Source of the DNA: Paludibacteraceae bacterium
GTDB taxonomy: Bacteria; Bacteroidota; Bacteroidia; Bacteroidales; Paludibacteraceae
Assembly (NCBI GenBank): GCA_017450605.1
Contig: JAFSTG010000077.1
Location: 1-53,516 of the forward strand
DNA length: 53,516 nt
Reading direction: 5' to 3'
The notes under the pieces were generated by a model, which saw only the letters and a program-made list of their open reading frames with translations, ran no database searches and was not told the origin of the DNA. This document shows, piece after piece, positions 44,867 through 53,516 of the stretch. Position 1 is the stretch's first letter, and every line of letters begins with the position of its first letter. The position numbers were made by a program, and so were the translations under genes.

Positions 44867-46080
44867 TGCGCAAAGAAGATTTCCCAATACTAAGTAAGAA
44901 AATATATGGCAGGCAACTTGTTTATTTAGACAATGCTGCCACCACACAGAAGCCTCAGGCTATGCTTGATGCCATAAATTTCGCATACTCTGATTTCAAC
45001 TCGAATATCCACCGAGGAGTGCATCACCTCTCGCAAGTAGCAACGGCTAATCACGAGCAGGCACGACGGAAAGTAGCCGATTTTATAGGAGCAAAAAGTG
45101 CCGAAGAAATAATTTTTACAAAGGGTACAACCGATTCTCTTAACATGCTTGCTTTCTGCTTTGGCGAAACGTTCATCTCAGAAGGCGACGAAATAATAAT
45201 ATCATCTGTAGAACATCACTCCAACATCGTTCCATGGCAAATGATGTGTAAGAGAAAAAAAGCAGTATTAAAAGTAATACCTCTGAAAAACGACCTGACC
45301 TTAGACTTAGATAAGTATGTCGGTCTGCTTTCCGAGCGCACCAAGTTAGTTTCTATAGCCGATGTAAGCAACGTTCTTGGAACAGAAAGCGACCTGAGTT
45401 TTATTATCGGTCAAGCACATCAAAGAAATATCGCAGTATGTGTGGATGCTGCACAATCTGTAGCACATAAAAAGATAGATGTTGGTGCACTCGACTGCGA
45501 TTTTCTTGCCTTTTCTGCTCATAAGATTTATTCGCCTAACGGCATCGGAATATTATACGGCAAAAAATATTGGCTGCAGCAACTCACACCATATCAGGGG
45601 GGAGGAGAGATGATAGAGCATGTAAGTTTCGAAAACACAACTTATAATATTCTTCCTTATAAGTTTGAAGCAGGAACACCTAACTACATAGGCTCTTATG
45701 CATTTGCCAAAACTTTAGAATACTTAGAAAGCGTAGGGTTAGAACAAATTTTTGAGCACGAAAACAGTCTTTCGCAATACGCAGAAAAAAAACTCGAAAA
45801 CATTGAAGGTGTAAAAATCTACGCTGCCGGTCAGGAAAAGAAAGGTGTTATATCCTTCAATGTCTATAACAAAGGACAACTTATTCATCCTTACGATATA
45901 GGTATGCTACTCGATAAGCAAGGCGTGGCAGTCCGGACAGGTCATCATTGCGCCGAACCACTGACAAGACTGTTAGGCGTAAGCGGAACGGTAAGGATAT
46001 CGTTGGCACTATACAACGATAGAAATGACATTGATATCTTTATACAAGGACTAAAAAGAGCTATCGCGATGCTGGAATAA
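44866..46080 (+). CDS. sufS: cysteine desulfurase SufS
   Basis: PLP enzyme that supplies sulfur for Fe-S clusters, 404 residues, class II desulfurase. The PLP-binding Lys220 is in SAHKIYSPNGIGILYG and the catalytic Cys362 in RTGHHCAEPL. No sufBCD or sufE is adjacent, so it stands apart from the usual suf operon. It is the last housekeeping gene before the accessory region. Confidence 0.95.
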   Translation: MRKEDFPILSKKIYGRQLVYLDNAATTQKPQAMLDAINFAYSDFNSNIHRGVHHLSQVATANHEQARRKVADFIGAKSAEEIIFTKGTTDSLNMLAFCFGETFISEGDEIIISSVEHHSNIVPWQMMCKRKKAVLKVIPLKNDLTLDLDKYVGLLSERTKLVSIADVSNVLGTESDLSFIIGQAHQRNIAVCVDAAQSVAHKKIDVGALDCDFLAFSAHKIYSPNGIGILYGKKYWLQQLTPYQGGGEMIEHVSFENTTYNILPYKFEAGTPNYIGSYAFAKTLEYLESVGLEQIFEHENSLSQYAEKKLENIEGVKIYAAGQEKKGVISFNVYNKGQLIHPYDIGMLLDKQGVAVRTGHHCAEPLTRLLGVSGTVRISLALYNDRNDIDIFIQGLKRAIAMLE

Positions 46081-46420
46081 ACACCCTGCACCGACAGACG
46101 GCGATAAATGATGGATTGATGAATGATGGATTGATATTTCAACCACATTCAACCATCTTCCACTCAAAGCAATCGTTCGGAGCGCAGCGGAGATAAGCAC
46201 GTTTACGATCGTTCGGAGCAAAGCGTAGTTATGAACCATCTTCAACCATCTTTGAACTTTGGAACCTTGCACGGCTTTGCCGATCGTTCGGAGCGAAGCG
46301 TAGATAAGCACGTTTACGATCGTTCGGAGCAAAGCGTAGATAAGCACGTTTACGATCGTTCGGAGCAAAGCGTAGATAAGCACGTTTACGATCGTTCGGA
46401 GCAAAGCGTAGATAAGAACT
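46081..46420. repeat. repeat array: 36-bp tandem units plus smaller repeats
   Basis: The 340-bp gap after sufS is built of repeats. Copies of a 36-bp unit beginning (G)ATCGTTCGGAGC start at 46171, 46207, 46282, 46318, 46354 and 46390; the last four are contiguous and nearly identical. A 15-bp unit (AATGATGGATTGAT plus G) is repeated at 46107-46135. CAACCATCTT recurs three times between 46150 and 46250. Since 36 is a multiple of three, frames stay open through the array on both strands, but I see no sign that they are coding. No promoter of the TAnnTTTG type is evident in front of the next gene. Confidence 0.92.
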
Positions 46421-48010
46421 TTGAACCTTAAACCCTCCATATTGCTCCTGTTGTTCTGTTTCGTTTCCTGCACGGGTTTGCATGAGGCGCGGGAGACTAT
46501 TGCCGAGGCAGACAGTCTCCGCGCGGCAGGCGTTGCGTATGACGACAGCCTCCGCCTTGATTCAGCCTACCAAACTCTCGGCAGTTGGTGGAACAGAAAC
46601 ATCCATCCTGACGACTATGCCGGCGCATGCTATTACTACGGCAGACTGCACCGCACCCGCGGCAATCAAGTAGAGGCGATGCGCTGTTTCATAAACGGCA
46701 CACATGCACAGTATCTCTACAAGCCGATTGTTAATCCTCTTTTCTCCAACCATTCTATTCTCGGACGTACCTATAGCAATATGGGCACAATGTGCCATAC
46801 AATAGAGGAATACCAACTCTCATACGACATGTACGAGAAATCATCGGAGCAATTCTTGATTGCTAATGACACAATTACATATTATTATGCTCTTTACTAT
46901 ATGTCATTTGAGTTGTCGGAGATGTGTATGTATGATGAAACCATGGCGTTGCTCAACAAGATTGAGAATGAGTGTGAGGATGATAATGTACTTTCATATA
47001 CGTGGATTACAAGATTAAATTTATATGATAAAATTGAGAAGTATGATTCTGTAATATATGCTTCAGACAAACTTCAGGAACTTGGCAATCATGCTGCAAT
47101 AGGTTATGTAACAAAAGCACAGGCTTATTGGCACTTGGAGCAATATGATTCTGCGGTGTTATATGCAAATTATGTTATGTCTTTACCCTATGCAGCAGCA
47201 GAAGATAAATTTAACATGCTGTATATTTTGATTTATAATGATACGACTGCGGGTAATAAAGAAAGAATCAGACTGACAGAAGAACGAGCAGATATAGACA
47301 AGGAAATCCTTGATCCTATTCATCAGCAAGTTTCACAAGCCGTAGAGATACTACGACAGGATATAAACGTCAAGACCCCATATCTGAATATCATATTATT
47401 ACTTGCTTCCGTTTGTCTGCTCATTGCTATTGCCATGTTCGTAAAACTCCGAACAATAAGAATTCACAAACAATCTATCACAGAGATAAACCAAGAGAAG
47501 AATCAGATAGAAGAGATGCGACAAGAAGTTGTTTCCCTGACTATCGAGGAACAGCAAAAGCAAAATATATTGAGAGAACAGCAACAACAGATAGAAGAAG
47601 AAATATCGACATTACAAAAAAAGAATGATAATTTGTTAAAACAACAATTACAAAATAAACAATCCAGACTAAATATAATTTATCAAAATTGCGAGAATAT
47701 TAAAAGTTCAGATGATTTATATAAAGAATTGTGTTGGAAAGACTATGATCGAATGTGCGGTATTATCAATACAAACTTTTTTCAGTTGGCAACAAAATTG
47801 AAAAAGTATTATAATTTGTCGGACCAGGAAATAAGACTATGTATATTGGTGCTATTAGAACAAAGTCAAGAAACGATATCCCAAATGCTGAATTATTCTT
47901 CAAATGGTATAGGAAAATTCAAATATCGTGTAAGTAAAAAAATGGGGACAACCAATAAAAAATTGAGAGAAATCATCCTTGAAATATCCGTTGAAGAGTG
48001 TGTTTCTTGA
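46421..48010 (+). CDS. TPR - transmembrane - coiled coil - HTH membrane-spanning regulator
   Basis: 529 residues from a TTG start at 46421; an in-frame stop lies at 46409 and no earlier start fits. A signal or lipobox-like segment (LLLLFCFVSC) is followed by periplasmic TPR-type helices (about 60-280), a transmembrane helix (about 320-342, LNIILLLASVCLLIAIAMFV), a glutamine/glutamate-rich coiled coil (about 350-425) and a C-terminal LuxR/GerE-like helix-turn-helix (about 470-525, LSDQEIRLCILVLLEQSQETISQML, then IGKFKYRVSKKMG). This layout senses in the periplasm and binds DNA from the inner membrane; such proteins are common but poorly studied in Bacteroidales. The first 150 bp are about 59% GC by hand count and later parts about 29%. 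A DUF3244 gene follows. Confidence 0.82.
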   Translation: MNLKPSILLLLFCFVSCTGLHEARETIAEADSLRAAGVAYDDSLRLDSAYQTLGSWWNRNIHPDDYAGACYYYGRLHRTRGNQVEAMRCFINGTHAQYLYKPIVNPLFSNHSILGRTYSNMGTMCHTIEEYQLSYDMYEKSSEQFLIANDTITYYYALYYMSFELSEMCMYDETMALLNKIENECEDDNVLSYTWITRLNLYDKIEKYDSVIYASDKLQELGNHAAIGYVTKAQAYWHLEQYDSAVLYANYVMSLPYAAAEDKFNMLYILIYNDTTAGNKERIRLTEERADIDKEILDPIHQQVSQAVEILRQDINVKTPYLNIILLLASVCLLIAIAMFVKLRTIRIHKQSITEINQEKNQIEEMRQEVVSLTIEEQQKQNILREQQQQIEEEISTLQKKNDNLLKQQLQNKQSRLNIIYQNCENIKSSDDLYKELCWKDYDRMCGIINTNFFQLATKLKKYYNLSDQEIRLCILVLLEQSQETISQMLNYSSNGIGKFKYRVSKKMGTTNKKLREIILEISVEECVS

Positions 48011-48180
48011 CCTCAAACAAAAATGCCCATCTGAGATTTTTATAACAGGCAGATTTATTGACACTTGCCAAAAGCAAATGCCCATCTGATTTTTTTGTCA
48101 TATCCCTAAGCCTTTATAATTTTGGAGCGTGAAACCTAAAGTTGTTTCATGTTGTTTTTTTTAATTTAAAAAATAGATTT
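48011..48180 (+). promoter_or_regulatory. DUF3244 promoter with duplicated 14-bp motif
   Basis: Promoter: TTTG (48094-48097), a 19-nt spacer and TAATTTTG (48117-48124). Upstream the 14-mer AAATGCCCATCTGA occurs twice, at 48021-48034 and 48076-48089, 55 bp apart; the second copy ends 5 nt before the -33 box. The pair is a candidate operator, perhaps for the HTH regulator encoded just upstream. The flanks (T-rich after each copy) are also similar. Confidence 0.6.
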
Positions 48181-48576
48181 ATGAAAAAGAAATTATTATT
48201 TTGTTGCCTTTTGTTGTCATTTGTGGCAACTCCCTATTCAGTTCGTGCAGAAGAGACAGAAGTCGTAATTCAATTGTTTGAAATTGGTGGTTCAGGTCTT
48301 ATCGGCGGAGATGACCCATGTGGAAATCCAACGCAGGAAGGTGATGTTCCTCCCATTCCTACTCAGTTCCATGCCACTATTACGGGCAATGCTCTTGAGG
48401 TTACGGTTGACAACACCAATTCAACCAATCTTATTGTCCGCAATGCGTCGGGTAATGTAGTCGTTAACTCTCAGTTTGTGTCACTCACTTCTGAGTTCCT
48501 TTCCACATCGGGTAACTACTCGCTCGAAATCCACAACGGTGGTCTGACACTTGTCGGAGCGTTCTCCGTTCAATAA
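48181..48576 (+). CDS. DUF3244-family secreted protein
   Basis: 131 residues from the ATG at 48181 (KKKLLFCCLLLSF begins the signal peptide; cleavage probably after VRA). The mature part is a short Ig-like beta sandwich with FHATITGNALEVTVDN, LIVRNASGNVVVN and SGNYSLEIHNGGLTLVGAFSV, matching DUF3244. In some Bacteroidales, small DUF3244 proteins lie beside secreted proteases and their regulators. No function is established. It is behind its own promoter. Confidence 0.8.
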   Translation: MKKKLLFCCLLLSFVATPYSVRAEETEVVIQLFEIGGSGLIGGDDPCGNPTQEGDVPPIPTQFHATITGNALEVTVDNTNSTNLIVRNASGNVVVNSQFVSLTSEFLSTSGNYSLEIHNGGLTLVGAFSVQ

Positions 48577-48585
48577 TCTGTATCC

Positions 48586-48692
48586 GTTTCCCGCACTATA
48601 TATAATGTATAGTGTATAGTGATATATTGTTGTATAGTGCAGGAAACTAATGTATAGTGTATAGTGATATATTGTTGTATAGTGCAGGAAAC
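48586..48692. repeat. 45-bp tandem duplication with inverted partner
   Basis: Two identical 45-bp units (48603-48647 and 48648-48692) each end in TATAGTGCAGGAAAC. A 15-bp inverted partner, GTTTCCCGCACTATA (48586-48600), matches the reverse complement at 14 of 15 positions, so either copy can form a long hairpin with it. Inside each unit the heptamer TATAGTG recurs several times. It lies between the DUF3244 stop and the next gene. It may be a processing or attenuation hairpin, or a small mobile element remnant. Confidence 0.9.
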
Positions 48693-48730
48693 ATTAGTTT
48701 ATTATTCACGTTAAAAACAATAACAATAAA

Positions 48731-49672
48731 ATGAAAAGAAAAGTGAAAAGAATTTTATGTTTCTTATCGTTGTTTCTGATTATTACAACGATAAATGCCC
48801 AGAGTTGGGTGTCTAGTTTTCCTAAAATGTATGTTAATCCTGACACAACGAAGGTTGGTATCGGTATCACATCGCCTACAGAAAGACTTCATGTCAACAA
48901 TGGCGTGTTAAGAGTGGGTAATGGCTCTACAGGTTCAGAAAGAGCCAAGAATATGATAAAAATAGGTGACGGCGATTTTATTCGTATAGGGGAGTGGGAA
49001 GCCGATGATATGCTTTCATTCAAAGCCTCCAAATATGATTTCACGAATGGCAATGTCGGTATTGGCACTACATCTCCGCAGTATAAATTAGATGTTAATG
49101 GTAAAGTATATATTCATGCAGCGCAATCAACCGAAAGTTATATTCATTGGCAGTGGAATACTCTTGTACTTGGGACCCCGTCCGGTACTTATGCCCACAA
49201 CTCTGTGGACTTGATTCCCGGGGGTGAGAATACACATGGGGATACTCTTTTTTCTCGCTTGCGAATGTTTGAATCTCCGAATGCAACCTTTCATATAGAA
49301 AAGATTCGGTTGTGGACAGCCGGCAACTGCTGGTTTATGAACAGCGGCAACTTCGGCATCGGTACGTCAGCTCCACAATACAAATTGGATGTGAGAGGAA
49401 CGGTTCGCGCCAACGAGATAATTGTCAATACTCCGTCCGGTGCCGATTTTGTGTTTGACAAGGATTATGTTTTGCCGTCGTTGCAGGAAGTTAAATCGTA
49501 TATAGAAGAGAATCATCATTTGCCGGATGTTCCGTCGGAAAAAGAGATGCAGGAAAACGGAATGAATTTAGAGCAGATGGTCATTTTGCTGCTTCAGAAA
49601 ATAGAGGAGCTGACGCTTCACAATATCGAACTCGAAGAAAAAATTATCAAATTGGAAAACAATCAAAAATAA
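48731..49672 (+). CDS. secreted tail-fibre-like repeat protein with trimeric coiled-coil end
   Basis: 313 residues. A signal peptide (to about residue 24, INAQ) is followed by three repeats of the form VGIGT(T/S)SPxYKLDVxG, near positions 38-55, 103-120 and 210-225, as in Bacteroidetes surface proteins related to phage tail fibres. The C-terminal part has PSLQEVKSYIEENHHLPDVPS, close to the region that precedes intramolecular chaperone (endosialidase-type) domains. It ends in a short coiled coil (IEELTLHNIELEEKIIKLE), probably for trimerisation. No T9SS domain is visible. Surface structural role inferred. Confidence 0.8.
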   Translation: MKRKVKRILCFLSLFLIITTINAQSWVSSFPKMYVNPDTTKVGIGITSPTERLHVNNGVLRVGNGSTGSERAKNMIKIGDGDFIRIGEWEADDMLSFKASKYDFTNGNVGIGTTSPQYKLDVNGKVYIHAAQSTESYIHWQWNTLVLGTPSGTYAHNSVDLIPGGENTHGDTLFSRLRMFESPNATFHIEKIRLWTAGNCWFMNSGNFGIGTSAPQYKLDVRGTVRANEIIVNTPSGADFVFDKDYVLPSLQEVKSYIEENHHLPDVPSEKEMQENGMNLEQMVILLLQKIEELTLHNIELEEKIIKLENNQK

Positions 49673-49685
49673 GGAGGACAAGATT

Positions 49686-50378
49686 ATGAAACATCATTTT
49701 TCATTAACTATCTTAACAACCGTTGTTTTTTCAATGGCTTTATTGTTAATTACATCTTCTTGTAAAAGCCATCAGAATCCGACACCTTGGATTGATTTTC
49801 AGTCGAACATACGAGGTCAACTTGGATATACGGTTAATCCGTTTGATTCAAAAGACAGCGTTCTTTGTTTGAATAACGTGTATGACATTAGTATTTTAAC
49901 ATATAGTAGTGAGTATTATGCATATCTGAAAGATATTTTATCCAAGTACGACATATTTATAGACGAGGGTGATGATCCTTCGGTAGATAAAGGAAATATG
50001 CATGAGGCAAGATTTATCATTTATTCAGATATGACAGCCTATCCTGTTATCGATGGCAACTTCATATCTGTTGTTGATAAAACGACTGGTATTATCCCTG
50101 ATTCATTAAGTTTAATATTAAACTTCACAACTGTTTCCGGCTCTGAGACATCTGCCATTAAAGTTATATATCTGAAAAATAGACAAGCAGGCACAGGTAA
50201 TTCTAATGGTTATTACATTGATGAATATGTTGCTTTTCATGGGAATGATTTTATGAACCCTCCATTAATTACGGATTCGATTACTCCTCAAAAAGAACAA
50301 ATTATTTGTTTCGATGGTCATCGAGGTCCGATAGTTTGGAACAAGACCGAAATTGAAACTAAACCCACAAGAAATTAG
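49686..50378 (+). CDS. lipoprotein of unknown function
   Basis: 230 residues. The lipobox ends LLITSSC (about residue 26). The mature part is beta-rich with many S, T, N and D residues (ARFIIYSDMTAYPVIDG, then VSGSETSAIKVIYLKNRQ). I do not recognise the family. It starts 13 nt after the tail-fibre-like gene (an AAGGAGGA-like sequence precedes the ATG) and 5 nt before the C25 peptidase gene, so the three are probably one transcript. Confidence 0.75.
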   Translation: MKHHFSLTILTTVVFSMALLLITSSCKSHQNPTPWIDFQSNIRGQLGYTVNPFDSKDSVLCLNNVYDISILTYSSEYYAYLKDILSKYDIFIDEGDDPSVDKGNMHEARFIIYSDMTAYPVIDGNFISVVDKTTGIIPDSLSLILNFTTVSGSETSAIKVIYLKNRQAGTGNSNGYYIDEYVAFHGNDFMNPPLITDSITPQKEQIICFDGHRGPIVWNKTEIETKPTRN

Positions 50379-50383
50379 CCTTT

Positions 50384-52186
50384 ATGAAATATAAAAATTA
50401 TTGTTTGTATATCTTGTTAATAATATTCTGTAATATAAATGATTTATTTGCAGAATATATTTCAGAAGCCAAATATGATAGTTTGGCGATGTATTTTACA
50501 GAACAGGACATGAAAAGTACTTATGATGATTCTGCTTTTTCTCGTTTCAATAATGATAATAATCTCAGAAGTTTTACGCAAACCCATGAGTATTGCATAT
50601 CACAAGACAATAATAACGTTACTTATATCAACAAGATATTAGTATTGGTTAATGATTATGTGTATGAGGAAATGCCTGATTACATAATAAGATATGCACA
50701 TGATATTCATAATGCTTTTGGGTGTATAGTTGATATTATTTCTATATCAGGCGGAACTTCTGCGCAAATAAAATCGGTAATTTCATCCTATTCTAATAAT
50801 TTGAATGGAGTTGTGATGATAGGATATATAGCAACTGCCTATTATTATAATGCTGCCACTTCAACAGGGTCAACCGATTGGCCGGAAGACACCTATCCTT
50901 GCGATTTGTTTTACATGGACTTGGATGGAACATGGCAGTTGAAAAACGAGAGTGTTAATAATATATATGATAATCACACGGGAAACGTTAAACCGGAGAT
51001 TTTTGTAGGAAGAATAAATACATCTTCTATGGATAATGATGAGATAGAAGATTTAAAGCACTATATGAATCGCAATCATAGATATTGGACAGGAAAAAAA
51101 GTATTGAATAAGCAAAGAGCATTAACGTTTACTTATAAAGATTGGAATACCTCCGATTTTTGGAATAGCGTGTCCCCATTATATGGCAATAGTTATTATG
51201 ATGCAGTCAAAGCCAATAGGTTTGATAAGGATTTATATATTAGTTATTTACAGAATAACAGCTATGAATTTATTCAAATAGCGAGTCATTCATATCCCAA
51301 CAATCATCTATTTGATTCAAATGGTGATACAACATTGTGCAGCGAAGATATTTATTCACTTAACAAAAAACCTATAGGATATAATTTGTTTTGCTGTAGT
51401 GCATGCAGGTGGACTTCATCCAGTGCTGGCCAATGTTTAGGAGAAAGTTATCTTTATGGAATAGATAATAAAACAGAAGCATTAGCAGTTATCGGAAGCA
51501 CCAAGGTTGGAGGCATGTTAGGTTTTGATGATTTTTATACACCGTTGGGTAATCAAAAATGTATAGGAGAAGCATATAAAATGTGGTGGGTGGATCATTG
51601 TGGTTCGTGTCATAGCAAATCTGAAAAATTGTGGTTTTACGGCATGACTATATTAGGTGATCCACTTGTTAATTTTAATTTTACTAATGAGTGTGATGAC
51701 ATACTAGTTCTAAATAGTGGCGAGGAATTGACAAATAGGAATTATTATGTGCAAAACAAAATTGTTGTTCAAAACTATTCAATAACCCAAGGTCAAAGCG
51801 TAACAATGTCTGCACCAGAGATACATATAACAGGTAATTTTATATGTAAGTCTCCTTCTGTTTTTAAGACAAATATTAACGATAATTGTGTCTGCAATAA
51901 CTCTACCCGTGATATGGTAAGGAACAGCAAAATAAATAAGAACACTTATAATTCTGAGAAACTAATACAATTTGCAACTATTTATCCCAATCCTGTAGAA
52001 AATGTTCTCACTATTGAAACCTCCGATACATTGGAAAAAGTAAGTATTTACAATCTCAGCGGGCAATGTGTGATGCATACAACGATGACGCAAATCAATG
52101 TAGCCGCTCTTCCGCAGGGAATGTATCTCTTGCGTGCAATGACCACCGACGGCACTCCGTTGCAAGCCAAGTTTATCAAACAGTAA
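50384..52186 (+). CDS. C25 (gingipain-like) peptidase with T9SS sorting domain
   Basis: 600 residues with signal peptide (to about 25). The catalytic domain (about 85-430) fits peptidase C25: KILVLVNDYVYEE, GVVMIGYIATAYY, PCDLFYMDLDGTW, EIFVGRINTSS, then candidate His302 in QIASHSYPNNH and candidate Cys338/Cys341 in LFCCSACRW, followed by ALAVIGSTKVGG and GMTILGDPLVNF. The C-terminal 75 residues are a T9SS type A sorting domain (YPNPVENVLTIE, YNLSGQCV, LPQGMYLLRA, KFIK). Exported by the T9SS, surface anchored or released. Codons for the sorting domain are about 50% GC, the passenger about 33%, by hand count. Confidence 0.82.
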   Translation: MKYKNYCLYILLIIFCNINDLFAEYISEAKYDSLAMYFTEQDMKSTYDDSAFSRFNNDNNLRSFTQTHEYCISQDNNNVTYINKILVLVNDYVYEEMPDYIIRYAHDIHNAFGCIVDIISISGGTSAQIKSVISSYSNNLNGVVMIGYIATAYYYNAATSTGSTDWPEDTYPCDLFYMDLDGTWQLKNESVNNIYDNHTGNVKPEIFVGRINTSSMDNDEIEDLKHYMNRNHRYWTGKKVLNKQRALTFTYKDWNTSDFWNSVSPLYGNSYYDAVKANRFDKDLYISYLQNNSYEFIQIASHSYPNNHLFDSNGDTTLCSEDIYSLNKKPIGYNLFCCSACRWTSSSAGQCLGESYLYGIDNKTEALAVIGSTKVGGMLGFDDFYTPLGNQKCIGEAYKMWWVDHCGSCHSKSEKLWFYGMTILGDPLVNFNFTNECDDILVLNSGEELTNRNYYVQNKIVVQNYSITQGQSVTMSAPEIHITGNFICKSPSVFKTNINDNCVCNNSTRDMVRNSKINKNTYNSEKLIQFATIYPNPVENVLTIETSDTLEKVSIYNLSGQCVMHTTMTQINVAALPQGMYLLRAMTTDGTPLQAKFIKQ

Positions 52187-52509
52187 ATATAGGGGTCTTA
52201 TTTCCACTGCGTTCCGAACGATTATAAATGTGCGCGTGGAAGGTTGTTGAAGGGATAGAATACTGACCTTGAAATTGACCGCTTTTCTTGCTAATTTTGC
52301 CCATCAAACAGAAGAATCCTACTTCACAGATAAAATGTAGACCTGCCACTATTGAAAATCAACATATTATACATGCATTTGTAGACTTGTGATTTTTGGA
52401 TGTCTTTTCATTTATGTGTAACTTTGCAGCGCAATTAAGAACTATTTAGGCGTTCGAAATGAAGAGCGGCGGACAATTACAAATACAAACACAATAAAAT
52501 CATAATACC
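52187..52509 (+). promoter_or_regulatory. intergenic region with decayed repeat and two promoters
   Basis: 323 bp without a gene. An inverted, diverged copy of the 36-bp repeat family and its flank lies at 52203-52251. Two promoters follow: TTG (52269-52271), 20 nt, TAATTTTG (52292-52299); and TTTG (52395-52398), 20 nt, TAACTTTG (52419-52426). The second is about 84 nt before the ATG of the next gene. The octamer TGCCCATC at 52298-52305 also occurs in the duplicated motif upstream of the DUF3244 gene. Confidence 0.6.
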
Positions 52510-53402
52510 ATGAAACGAATTTTACTTATTTTAGCAGTAATTATACTTGTGCTAAACTCATCGTATGCCATTGCTTTTCCTGACACATGGTATTGCTTGG
52601 ATGAACAACGCAGTTGGGGCCCCAATCCTAACGGACATGATGAAGTCAGCCTTAATATGGCTAAATACTATCTTGACGGTGATACAACAATAAACGATAT
52701 GACCTATTCAAAACTGTTCTAAAAGACTTTCAAGGAAGATCGTATAGAGATGCTTATATAGGAGGGTTGCGTTTCAACGAAGACACCACAAAAATATATA
52801 TTCGTCCTTGGGGAAGTGAATATTATAACTGCAAAGATGATTACTTGCTGTTTGATTACACCATTAAAGAAGGTGAAACATGCGATGCTTTCGTAAGCAG
52901 TGTAGATGATTGGTGGTACTGCGATGAAATAGGTTATATGGATACTGTGGTTCTGCCAATAAAATGTGTTAAGATAGACACTATTAATAATCGTAGATAT
53001 TTCACAATGAAAGCGACTTATTTCTCTACTCCTATTCATGATTATAGTTATCATCAGTTTATATGGATAGAAAGGATAGGAACAAAATTCGGATTGTTCT
53101 CAAGTCCACACCCACTTGATCCCACAGACGAGCAATATTCCGACCACTCGTTACTATGTGCCTTGAGAGGTGACGAAGTATTGTATTCCCGCCCTGATAG
53201 TGAACTTACACATATCGGACATCACGGAGTGTTAAACCACTGCTCGTCGTTCGAAGTAATAAGAAGCGATATTGAAAACAATGATATTTTGGGTGGCGCT
53301 ACTCTCGACCTTTCTGCTCCGATGTATAATATACTTGGCTTGCCAGTGAGAAACGATTATCACGGTATAATCATACAAAACGGACGGAAATATGTGAGGT
53401 AA
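52510..53402 (+). pseudogene. secreted protein gene interrupted by a frameshift
   Basis: Two reading frames together form one protein. The first (52510-52722) has a signal peptide (ILLILAVIILVLNSSYAIA) and continues to YSKLF, then stops. The second frame, open upstream of its nominal TTG at 52767, continues the theme with LKDFQGRSYRDAYIGGLRFNED and ends MYNILGLPVRNDYHGIIIQNGRKYVR, a short sorting-like tail. Loss of one base near 52717-52721 explains it; a -1 ribosomal slip at TTCTAAAA or a sequencing error are alternatives. Similar multi-hundred-residue secreted proteins with the YxKLY...YIGGLRE theme occur in Bacteroidales; no enzymatic motif is evident. Confidence 0.65.
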
Positions 53403-53413
53403 AGAAAATATGT

Positions 53414-53497
53414 TTTTTCTCTGCCGGCATGTACCTGTATTCTCTTGTTGCCGATGGTCAACTGATTGATACAAAACAAATGATATTAACGAAATGA
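53414..53497 (+). pseudogene. orphan T9SS sorting-domain tail
   Basis: In a frame different from the preceding gene the sequence reads FFSAGMYLYSLVADGQLIDT followed by KQMILTK and a stop. This is the second half of a type A sorting domain (compare LPQGMYLLRAMTTDGT in the C25 peptidase). No start codon or upstream half is present. It appears to be a fragment left from another cargo gene or an earlier version of this one. Confidence 0.6.
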
Positions 53498-53516
53498 AAA
53501 TAAAAGTTATGAAAAA
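53494..53516 (+). CDS. possible start of a next gene, cut by window edge
   Basis: ATG at 53494 (or 53509) is followed by lysine-rich codons (KIKVMKK), as at the start of a signal peptide. Too short to identify. Confidence 0.25.

Follow-up and report, generated by a model that had tools for sequence, protein, structure and literature searches.

The locus and its regulator

The window analysed here is a stretch of 53,516 nucleotides (nt) of Paludibacteraceae DNA (contig JAFSTG010000077.1), which is the entire contig C41 of a metagenome-assembled genome (G000; 2.24 Mb, 84% complete). Towards its end lies the gene for a membrane-spanning regulator, followed by genes for a small DUF3244-like protein, a tail-fibre-like protein, a possible lipoprotein and a protein secreted by the type IX secretion system (T9SS), all on the plus strand (Table 1). 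This gene order had been given in an earlier note on the same DNA and was seen again here. We refer to the whole unit as a cassette and to the genes behind the small DUF3244-like gene as its cargo.

Table 1. Features of the cassette and of the adjoining DNA, in window coordinates or in amino acids (aa) of the regulator. TPR, tetratricopeptide repeat; TM, transmembrane helix; HTH, helix-turn-helix; ORF, open reading frame; UTR, untranslated region.
Feature	Position	Strand	Remarks
Regulator gene, 529 aa, TTG start	46421..48010	+	ORF
Lipobox Cys17	regulator N-terminus		invariant in 39 aligned sequences
TPR region	regulator aa 20-160		strongest covariation with small protein
Second TPR half, more variable	regulator about aa 170-290		
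TM, one hydrophobic helix	regulator about aa 322-341		then KLRTIRIHK, then coiled coil
HTH	regulator about aa 455-529		C-terminal
Operator half-site 1, AATGCCCATCTGA	48022..48034	+	lag 55 bp to second copy
Operator half-site 2, AATGCCCATCTGA again	48077..48089	+	directly upstream of -33 element
Bacteroidota-type promoter TTTG-N19-TAATTTTG (presumed)	48094..48124	+	by inspection
5'-UTR terminal hairpin GAGCGTGAAACC..GTTGTTTCATGTTG	48125..48154	+	directly after -7 box; z -4.4 in window copy
Small secreted DUF3244-like protein, 131 aa, signal peptide	48181..48576	+	profile matches
Cargo: secreted tail-fibre-like protein, 313 aa, coiled-coil end	48731..49672	+	59% identical homologue in cassette L125
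Cargo: possible lipoprotein, SSC near N-terminus	49686..50378	+	
Cargo: T9SS-secreted protein, 600 aa, type A sorting domain aa 533-600	50384..52186	+	
Second operator TGTAGAC-N37-TGTAGAC, lag 44 bp	52336..52386	+	half-site and spacing as behind the paralogous regulator on contig C4
Promoter box TAACTTTG of second operator	52419-52426	+	
Broken secreted-protein gene	52512..53497	+	ORFs 52512-52721 and 52767-53402, tail in third frame

The earlier note had also read the first gene as a TPR-HTH regulator, and a lipobox-like signal, TPR-like repeats, one TM helix, a coiled coil and a C-terminal HTH were all seen. In the window copy the best Pfam scores lie below the cut-offs (TPR 13.0 bits; GerE, PF00196, 14.9 vs 23.5 bits), and the assignment is backed by the relatives, with TPR_12 matched in 26/39 regulator homologues and GerE in 5/39 (E<=0.01). 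The TPR region is predicted to be periplasmic because it lies between the N-terminal lipobox signal and the TM helix, and the C-terminus is predicted to be inside because of the KLRTIRIHK that follows the helix (positive-inside reasoning). Within the sensor, aa 169-308 form the most variable stretch. A recent class of Bacteroidota anti-sigma factors, Dma, is described as spanning both membranes (PMC13088901), which raises the question of whether the lipobox end of the regulator may sit in the outer membrane. Upstream of the regulator, a 36-bp tandem repeat at 46172-46416 (about 6.7 copies, ATCGTTCGGAGCAAAGCGTAGATAAGCACGTTTACG) ends 5 nt before the TTG start.

The named relatives of the regulator (n=79) belong to Paludibacteraceae or Bacteroidales, and the body sites, where stated, are gut compartments, of ruminants or deer; the host of the window is thus probably a gut member of the Paludibacteraceae. 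Matches at E<=1e-20 were found in 24/61 genomes searched, all of one genus (24/37 genomes of that genus, the window's own genome counted), and in 0/24 genomes of other families. Outside the genus, profile matches cover mostly the TM, coil and HTH alone. The 117 matches represent 100 distinct 3' ends, a set that includes fragments and genes truncated where a contig stops. At least 250 nt of downstream sequence are available for 77 of the 100, and 66 of these 77 are of the long type (>=430 aa) on which the counts below are based. The 11 loci outside this set are L001, L002, L034 (a 133-aa piece), L058, L059, L060, L062, L063, L064, L065 and L089, with L059 (435 aa) and L002 excluded by name as short types. 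Two further loci of one genome, L037 and L061 (G023), are both on contigs that stop within the regulator at about aa 316 with identical last residues, which is either an assembly fork or two sensors with one common HTH half.

A private operator in front of the small gene

Between the regulator and the small gene, the window carries two exact copies of AATGCCCATCTGA followed by a TTTG-N19-TAATTTTG element, which we take to be a Bacteroidota promoter by its likeness to the consensus. These are the sole exact copies of AATGCCCATCTGA in the own genome, where two single copies with one mismatch were found elsewhere and the pair was not seen at any other place. Across the 66 loci, the best direct-repeat lag is 54-57 bp in 52, as compared with 7.1% of shuffled sequences, and lags of 44, 66 and 68 bp also occur. 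A full rule combining the repeat, a downstream promoter box and a lag in helical phase is satisfied by 53/66 loci and by 14/1320 shuffles. A TAnnTTTG box lies 28-32 bp beyond the second repeat copy in 45/66 loci.

The sequence of the repeat varies from cassette to cassette and tracks the recognition helix of the HTH. For 51 of the 53 operators (two with a promoter box less than 15 bp away were dropped), operator distance correlated with recognition-helix distance (r=0.437, 0/2000 permutations) and showed no such relation to sensor distance (r=-0.017). Grouped by eye, and with exceptions, helices and repeats fall into the following classes: GKxK(Y/M/L)R with GCCCA, GKLKD with TTCCCACA, GKFKYT with TTTCCCAAT, IRNxK with TCCAC, IRTxK with TTGTGTAC, SIRxxKR with CTACAT, SGIKTLKKR with TGTAGACC, and SIGTLKxR with TTGTCTATC. 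For the operator pair of a shortened regulator in the own genome (C76, described below), one occurrence was found, a weak result since the reversed-pattern control also matched (1+1 matches).

That the regulator binds these repeats and activates transcription is suggested by the match of helix to repeat, activation in particular because the repeats sit upstream of the -33 element. We think it improbable that the regulator is instead a repressor that occupies the repeats until a signal releases it. The repeat sites do lie near the promoter, but in 45/66 loci a distance of 28-32 bp separates the end of the second copy from the -7 box. This puts the copy upstream of -33 or in contact with it, a usual position for an activator, and SusR, the Bacteroides regulator compared below, is reported to activate (PMC3878776). 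The idea of a regulator that switches surface proteins is supported by this predicted, dedicated operator between the regulator and the small gene.

Directly after the -7 box, the transcript would begin with a hairpin. It has z<-2 in 41/51 loci, a figure free of selection, while covariation was scored on 25 of the 51 sequences, hand-chosen among the good folders, so that the 93.3% of cells paired in this subset is biased upwards. In these 25 sequences, double changes occur in 9/12 pairs, and the covariation score is 0.587, as compared with 0.218 (standard deviation 0.025) when shuffled and at most 0.110 when slid. The hairpin may serve as a stabilising 5' end of the mRNA. No Rfam match was obtained across 45800-53516 at E<=0.5.

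The small DUF3244-like gene recurs behind the regulator

The small protein of the window scores 15.5 bits against Pfam DUF3244 (PF11589; cut-off 25), and other members of the family pass the cut-off (e.g. 28.2 bits in genome G031 and 32.8 bits in G084). A DUF3244 match was retrieved for 34/43 homologues at E<=0.1 (best 1.4e-6), and the sole match of the family profile was to 3sd2, a solved DUF3244 structure (E 0.0022). The score of the window copy against the type A sorting domain (TIGR04183, 16.9 bits) does not reach the cut-off of 23.

A homologue of the small protein lies within the next three ORFs of the regulator in 48/66 loci by ORF search. Inspection of the remaining 18 loci in three frames added two intact copies (L096 and L120) and four remnants (L036, L049, L103 and L078), giving 54/66. 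Conversely, Pfam DUF3244 has 17 short-frame hits within the genus, of which 16, all except L183, immediately follow such a regulator. The 46 loci with both genes fall into 34 groups without a common upstream homologue, ten of these groups consisting of two or three loci that share one; the genes upstream of the regulator vary, with uvrB and priA among them as examples of housekeeping genes. The pairing therefore recurs at many chromosomal places, although not all loci are independent. The earlier note had proposed a comparison of the neighbourhoods of regulator homologues as a check, and its outcome is positive: the DUF3244-like gene adjoins in most loci, as counted above, and secreted and T9SS genes recur. 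Searches of an open-licence library listed no description of this regulator-DUF3244 pairing.

Outside the genus, three of eight short-frame DUF3244 hits were examined; one lies directly behind a regulator-like gene (L178), one is divergent from such a gene (L179), and one has none (L180). Among 28 loci inspected outside the genus, a DUF3244-like small gene stands beside a regulator-like gene in L178, L179 and L196 only. In L196 (571-1008; a weak match, E 0.061) and L178 (5542-5913), which come from other Bacteroidales families, it lies about 138 nt behind a distant regulator-like gene.

We would like to note two further observations on the small gene. In the four remnant loci it is reduced to the signal peptide and the first residues, followed in L036 by a different C-terminal tail. 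In the window, the DNA that separates the small gene from the tail-fibre-like gene contains a perfect 45-bp tandem duplication (48603-48692).

The small protein varies with the sensor, hardly with the HTH

Over 46 pairs, the distance between small proteins correlated strongly with the distance between sensors (r=0.785, 0/2000; 0.777 given the HTH), whereas the correlation with the HTH given the sensor was 0.024 (634/2000). Species relationship was controlled with MnmG, found in 37/39 genomes searched and in the own genome, which left 44 of the 46 pairs usable. Given MnmG, the correlation between small protein and sensor was 0.623 for the 44 loci, 0.479 for a 35-locus core and 0.573 for one locus per genome (all 0/1000), and the HTH itself barely followed the species marker (0.11, 0.05 and 0.03). 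Along the regulator, coupling to the small protein peaks at aa 69-108 (r=0.82, or 0.65 given species), and within the sensor it reaches its minimum at aa 169-258 (0.24-0.28). With species accounted for, almost none of it is left in the HTH, where coupling to the operator instead climbs to 0.52. The HTH sits between the sensor and the small gene on the DNA, yet is hardly coupled to the small protein.

Two pairs of loci display this mosaic directly. Between L087 and L088, DNA identity is 63-74% over the first sensor half, 82-95% over the second half and TM, 54-63% in the HTH and operator, and 68-100% in the small gene. Between L044 and L047, which belong to one genome, about the first 110 codons are 89-95% identical, the rest of the regulator is mostly 46-61% identical, and the small gene is 60-98% identical.

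Since the small protein varies with the TPR sensor, a role as its partner is favoured, as the earlier note had suggested among other options, and physical contact between the small protein and the TPRs may be proposed on these grounds. We regard as rather doubtful the alternative in which the small protein is the first, widely shared cargo with an extracellular job of its own, and in which its match with the sensor reflects joint inheritance of the two cassette ends while HTH and operator are exchanged. Such inheritance would fit two facts: the species marker correlates with the sensor (r 0.62) as well as with the small protein (0.70), and copies from the same genome tend to be alike in sensor and small protein (5/6 pairs at or below the 23rd percentile for the sensor). 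Nevertheless, the correlation survives species control (0.48-0.62), and linkage alone is a poor account because the HTH shows almost no coupling to the small protein (0.175 raw, 0.024 given the sensor), even though its coding sequence precedes the small gene, and the sharing of downstream cargo is unrelated to the small protein. Two shortened paralogues in the own genome also speak against this alternative. The C76 regulator (L001 7555-8247, 230 aa) has lost the TPRs and kept the lipobox, TM, coil and HTH as well as the repeats and promoter box, and the C31 regulator (316 aa) retains part of the TPRs; the small gene was not found behind either.

The cargo is interchangeable

For the cargo census, 88 of 121 cargo ORFs were used (no more than the first three of any locus went into the 121), with 88 of 89 upstream ORFs as a control (the antisense ORF of the window was left out). 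By a crude hydrophobicity rule, a signal-like N-terminus is present in 75/88 cargo ORFs and in 22/88 upstream ORFs. A T9SS tail was matched in 22/88 cargo ORFs (E<=0.01), and it is not among the families listed (at least three members) for the upstream set. In the own genome, T9SS cargo is common, with 24 sorting-domain matches above cut-off.

In one recurrent set, a tail-fibre-like protein, or a similar one that ends in a coiled coil, accompanies a T9SS protease whose class changes: C10 in L070 and L102, M12-like in L068 and L125, and no Pfam class in the window. Homologous multi-gene sets (ORFs of about 340 and 1000 aa, then a longer one) stand behind the otherwise different cassettes L003, L039, L108, L130, L135, L139 and L142; YD/RHS-type repeats occur in these sets, and YD repeats were matched in 6/88 cargo ORFs. 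A C25 protease is cargo in L114. Anti-phage Kiwa genes lie directly behind the cassette head in L046 (6309-8021) and L109 (10116-11777), with KwaA and KwaB in 2/88 cargo ORFs each, KwaB being seen in L046 and assigned by homology in L109.

Cargo sharing between cassettes was unrelated to TPR, TM, HTH, small-protein or species similarity; the coiled coil alone gave a slight trend (41/1000). For the small protein, the comparison by cargo sharing gave 0.457 vs 0.455 (530/1000). A match of the variable TPR half to cargo type was also considered and rejected (0.652 vs 0.644, 734/1000).

These results bear on two other explanations. The first, which the earlier note had also raised and which we now hold to be very unlikely, is that the DUF3244 protein or the lipoprotein inhibits the adjacent protease or acts as its chaperone. 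The tight operon and the recurrence of protease cargo (C10, M12-like, S8, M6 and C25 in other cassettes) would suit this role; however, one family of small proteins precedes unrelated cargo (YD-repeat sets, Kiwa genes and several protease classes) and does not change with cargo sharing, and the proteins in the lipoprotein slot of the window and of L070 are unrelated by BLASTP. The second is metabolite sensing in the manner of SusR, in which a small molecule or glycan specific to the cassette is the ligand of the variable TPR half, with DUF3244 as no more than an accessory or buffer. In favour of this, the sensor varies most in aa 169-308, but no SusC, SusD or glycosidase appears among the 25 families listed (of 29 Pfam and 65 NCBIfam) for the 88 cargo ORFs, and cargo type does not track aa 170-290, and on balance we find this explanation unlikely.

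In the window itself, the 50384-52186 product had been called a gingipain-type protease with a sorting domain. The type A sorting domain was confirmed (PF18962, 48.1 bits, cut-off 27; TIGR04183, 49.1 bits, cut-off 23), but the assignment to C25 was not, as no match to Pfam PF01364 was obtained up to E=5. The motifs PEIFVGR, SHS, CSAC and GDP presumably resemble those of C25, at the motif level alone, and a weak collinear BLASTP stretch (E 0.45) links the protein to a C25 protein of another cassette.

The last gene, previously counted as a further secreted member of the same module, is broken over three frames and has its own promoter behind another regulator's operator. The TGTAGAC pair of the C4 regulator occurs at two places in the own genome, at C4 and in the window (reversed-pattern control 0). 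Because of this C4-type operator in front of it, the gene is probably under the C4 regulator rather than the 46421 regulator. The picture of a single, fixed surface-remodelling module therefore does not hold: cargo is interchangeable, with no link to the type of regulator or DUF3244 protein, and the last gene follows the operator of a different regulator.

Proposed mechanism

We consider it likely that the locus is a modular cassette in which a SusR-like activator acts on private repeats, a DUF3244 protein is the partner of its sensor, and the cargo is exchangeable. This explanation draws on the architecture, on the recurrence of regulator, repeats, promoter, hairpin and small gene, and on the matches of recognition helix to repeat and of TPR sensor to small protein with cargo linked to neither, as read from the sequences. 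It has three parts, namely a TPR sensor with a DUF3244 partner, an HTH with a private operator, and interchangeable cargo. The regulator would be an inner-membrane one-component protein with its TPRs in the periplasm and its HTHs on two repeats about 55 bp (five helical turns) apart, and from the site beside -33 it would switch on the operon that follows. The DUF3244 product would be made first, be exported and contact the TPR sensor, mainly in its N-terminal half, and this contact would inform the regulator, as feedback, of how export or the envelope stands; the sign of the feedback, and an input through the variable TPR half (about aa 170-290), are conjectural. The rest of the operon would be exchangeable secreted cargo, here the tail-fibre-like protein, the possible lipoprotein and the T9SS-secreted putative protease. 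The locus-specific operator, the 5'-UTR hairpin and the two separately matched halves of the regulator are new beyond the earlier note.

Several findings weigh against this explanation. The small gene was not found in 12/66 loci (a doubtful match in L066, E 0.031, is uncounted), and 13/66 loci fail the operator rule. A shorter subfamily (L058-L060 and L062-L065) lacks both spacer and repeats, and three of its loci (L058, L059 and L065) keep a weak small-protein match; among all 11 excluded loci, small-protein matches occur in these three and in L089, and repeats in L089 and L001. Without controls, the small protein also correlates with the HTH (r=0.175, 5/2000) and the coil (0.333). The region likeliest to bind a cassette-specific ligand, aa 170-260, covaries weakly with the small protein (r 0.24-0.28); its covariation with species is still lower, and there is none with operator or cargo. 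Contact confined to the N-terminus is disfavoured by L087 and L088, in which the conserved part of the sensor is the second half. The correlation of sensor and small protein could stem from shared descent of the cassette ends while HTH and operator were swapped: copies in the same genome tend to resemble each other in sensor and small protein, which makes lineage a part of the signal, and one marker protein is an imperfect control for species. In addition, the loci are related, and the permutation counts are hence no clean probabilities.

A wider reading, which we offer tentatively, would make DUF3244 proteins dedicated protein ligands of trans-envelope transcription factors and the cassette a plug-in expression head. 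The TPRs would read the DUF3244 partner (reporting secretion or envelope state, or neighbour cells), the variable TPR half would take a second, cassette-specific signal, the freely swapped HTH would serve the private operator, and the pairing would extend to the families of L178, L179 and L196.

Relation to known systems and significance

The closest described kind of regulator is the SusR-like type, to which the cassette regulator is likened by architecture and operator layout. SusR-like regulators of Bacteroides (SusR BT3705, SusR2 BT3091 and others) have a periplasmic sensor and a C-terminal cytoplasmic HTH (PMC3878776; also PMC6874557), and their predicted direct repeats lie 67 or 77 bp apart between centres, six or seven turns, with motif similarity following regulator similarity (PMC3878776). 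The cassette regulator shares the predicted topology (periplasmic N-terminal sensor, one TM, C-terminal cytoplasmic HTH), the long-spaced direct repeats in helical phase upstream of the target operon, and the dependence of motif on regulator. It differs in repeat spacing (mostly 54-57 bp, also 44, 66 and 68 bp), in having secreted and T9SS proteins as targets in place of polysaccharide utilisation, in the absence of adjacent SusC, SusD or glycosidase genes from the families listed above, in its pairing with a DUF3244 gene, and in an HTH and sensor that evolve largely as separate modules.

In Porphyromonas gingivalis, PMC7712824 describes PorA, a small exported protein with a C-terminal domain (CTD) that stands upstream of PorXY-SigP in the pathway, as influencing an inner-membrane sensor that controls T9SS genes; feedback of the secretion state was proposed there, and direct contact between PorA and PorY is given as not detected. 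By analogy, the small protein of the cassette may report export capacity to an inner-membrane sensor. Unlike PorA, it is DUF3244-like, and unlike the two-component system and extracytoplasmic function (ECF) sigma factor that serve the T9SS machine, the cassette sensor doubles as a predicted transcription factor, and the operon under its control would be that of its own cargo.

The RRNPP family consists of cytoplasmic TPR regulators with an adjacent gene for a signal peptide. The cassette likewise has a TPR regulator followed by a gene for a small exported protein, but its TPRs are predicted to be periplasmic rather than cytoplasmic, the partner, at about 109 aa, is a domain and not an imported peptide, and the HTH is C-terminal, behind a membrane helix. 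The small protein resembles DUF3244 (PF11589) in its profile match and in consisting of a signal peptide and one small domain, although the window copy is below the Pfam cut-off, and Pfam assigns DUF3244 no function.

To our knowledge, how Bacteroidota choose their secreted proteins outside polysaccharide utilisation is largely open. The cassette brings a regulator, its operator, a likely partner and the targets together in one compact unit with dozens of natural variants, and for this reason two things are directly testable, namely the HTH's DNA code and the proposed response of the sensor to an exported protein. It offers a testable view of how gut Bacteroidales might control what they display on the outside, and it hints at what DUF3244, as yet a domain of unknown function, may do. 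If the wider reading is true, newly acquired surface proteases and adhesin-like or contact-dependent proteins would come under insulated control.

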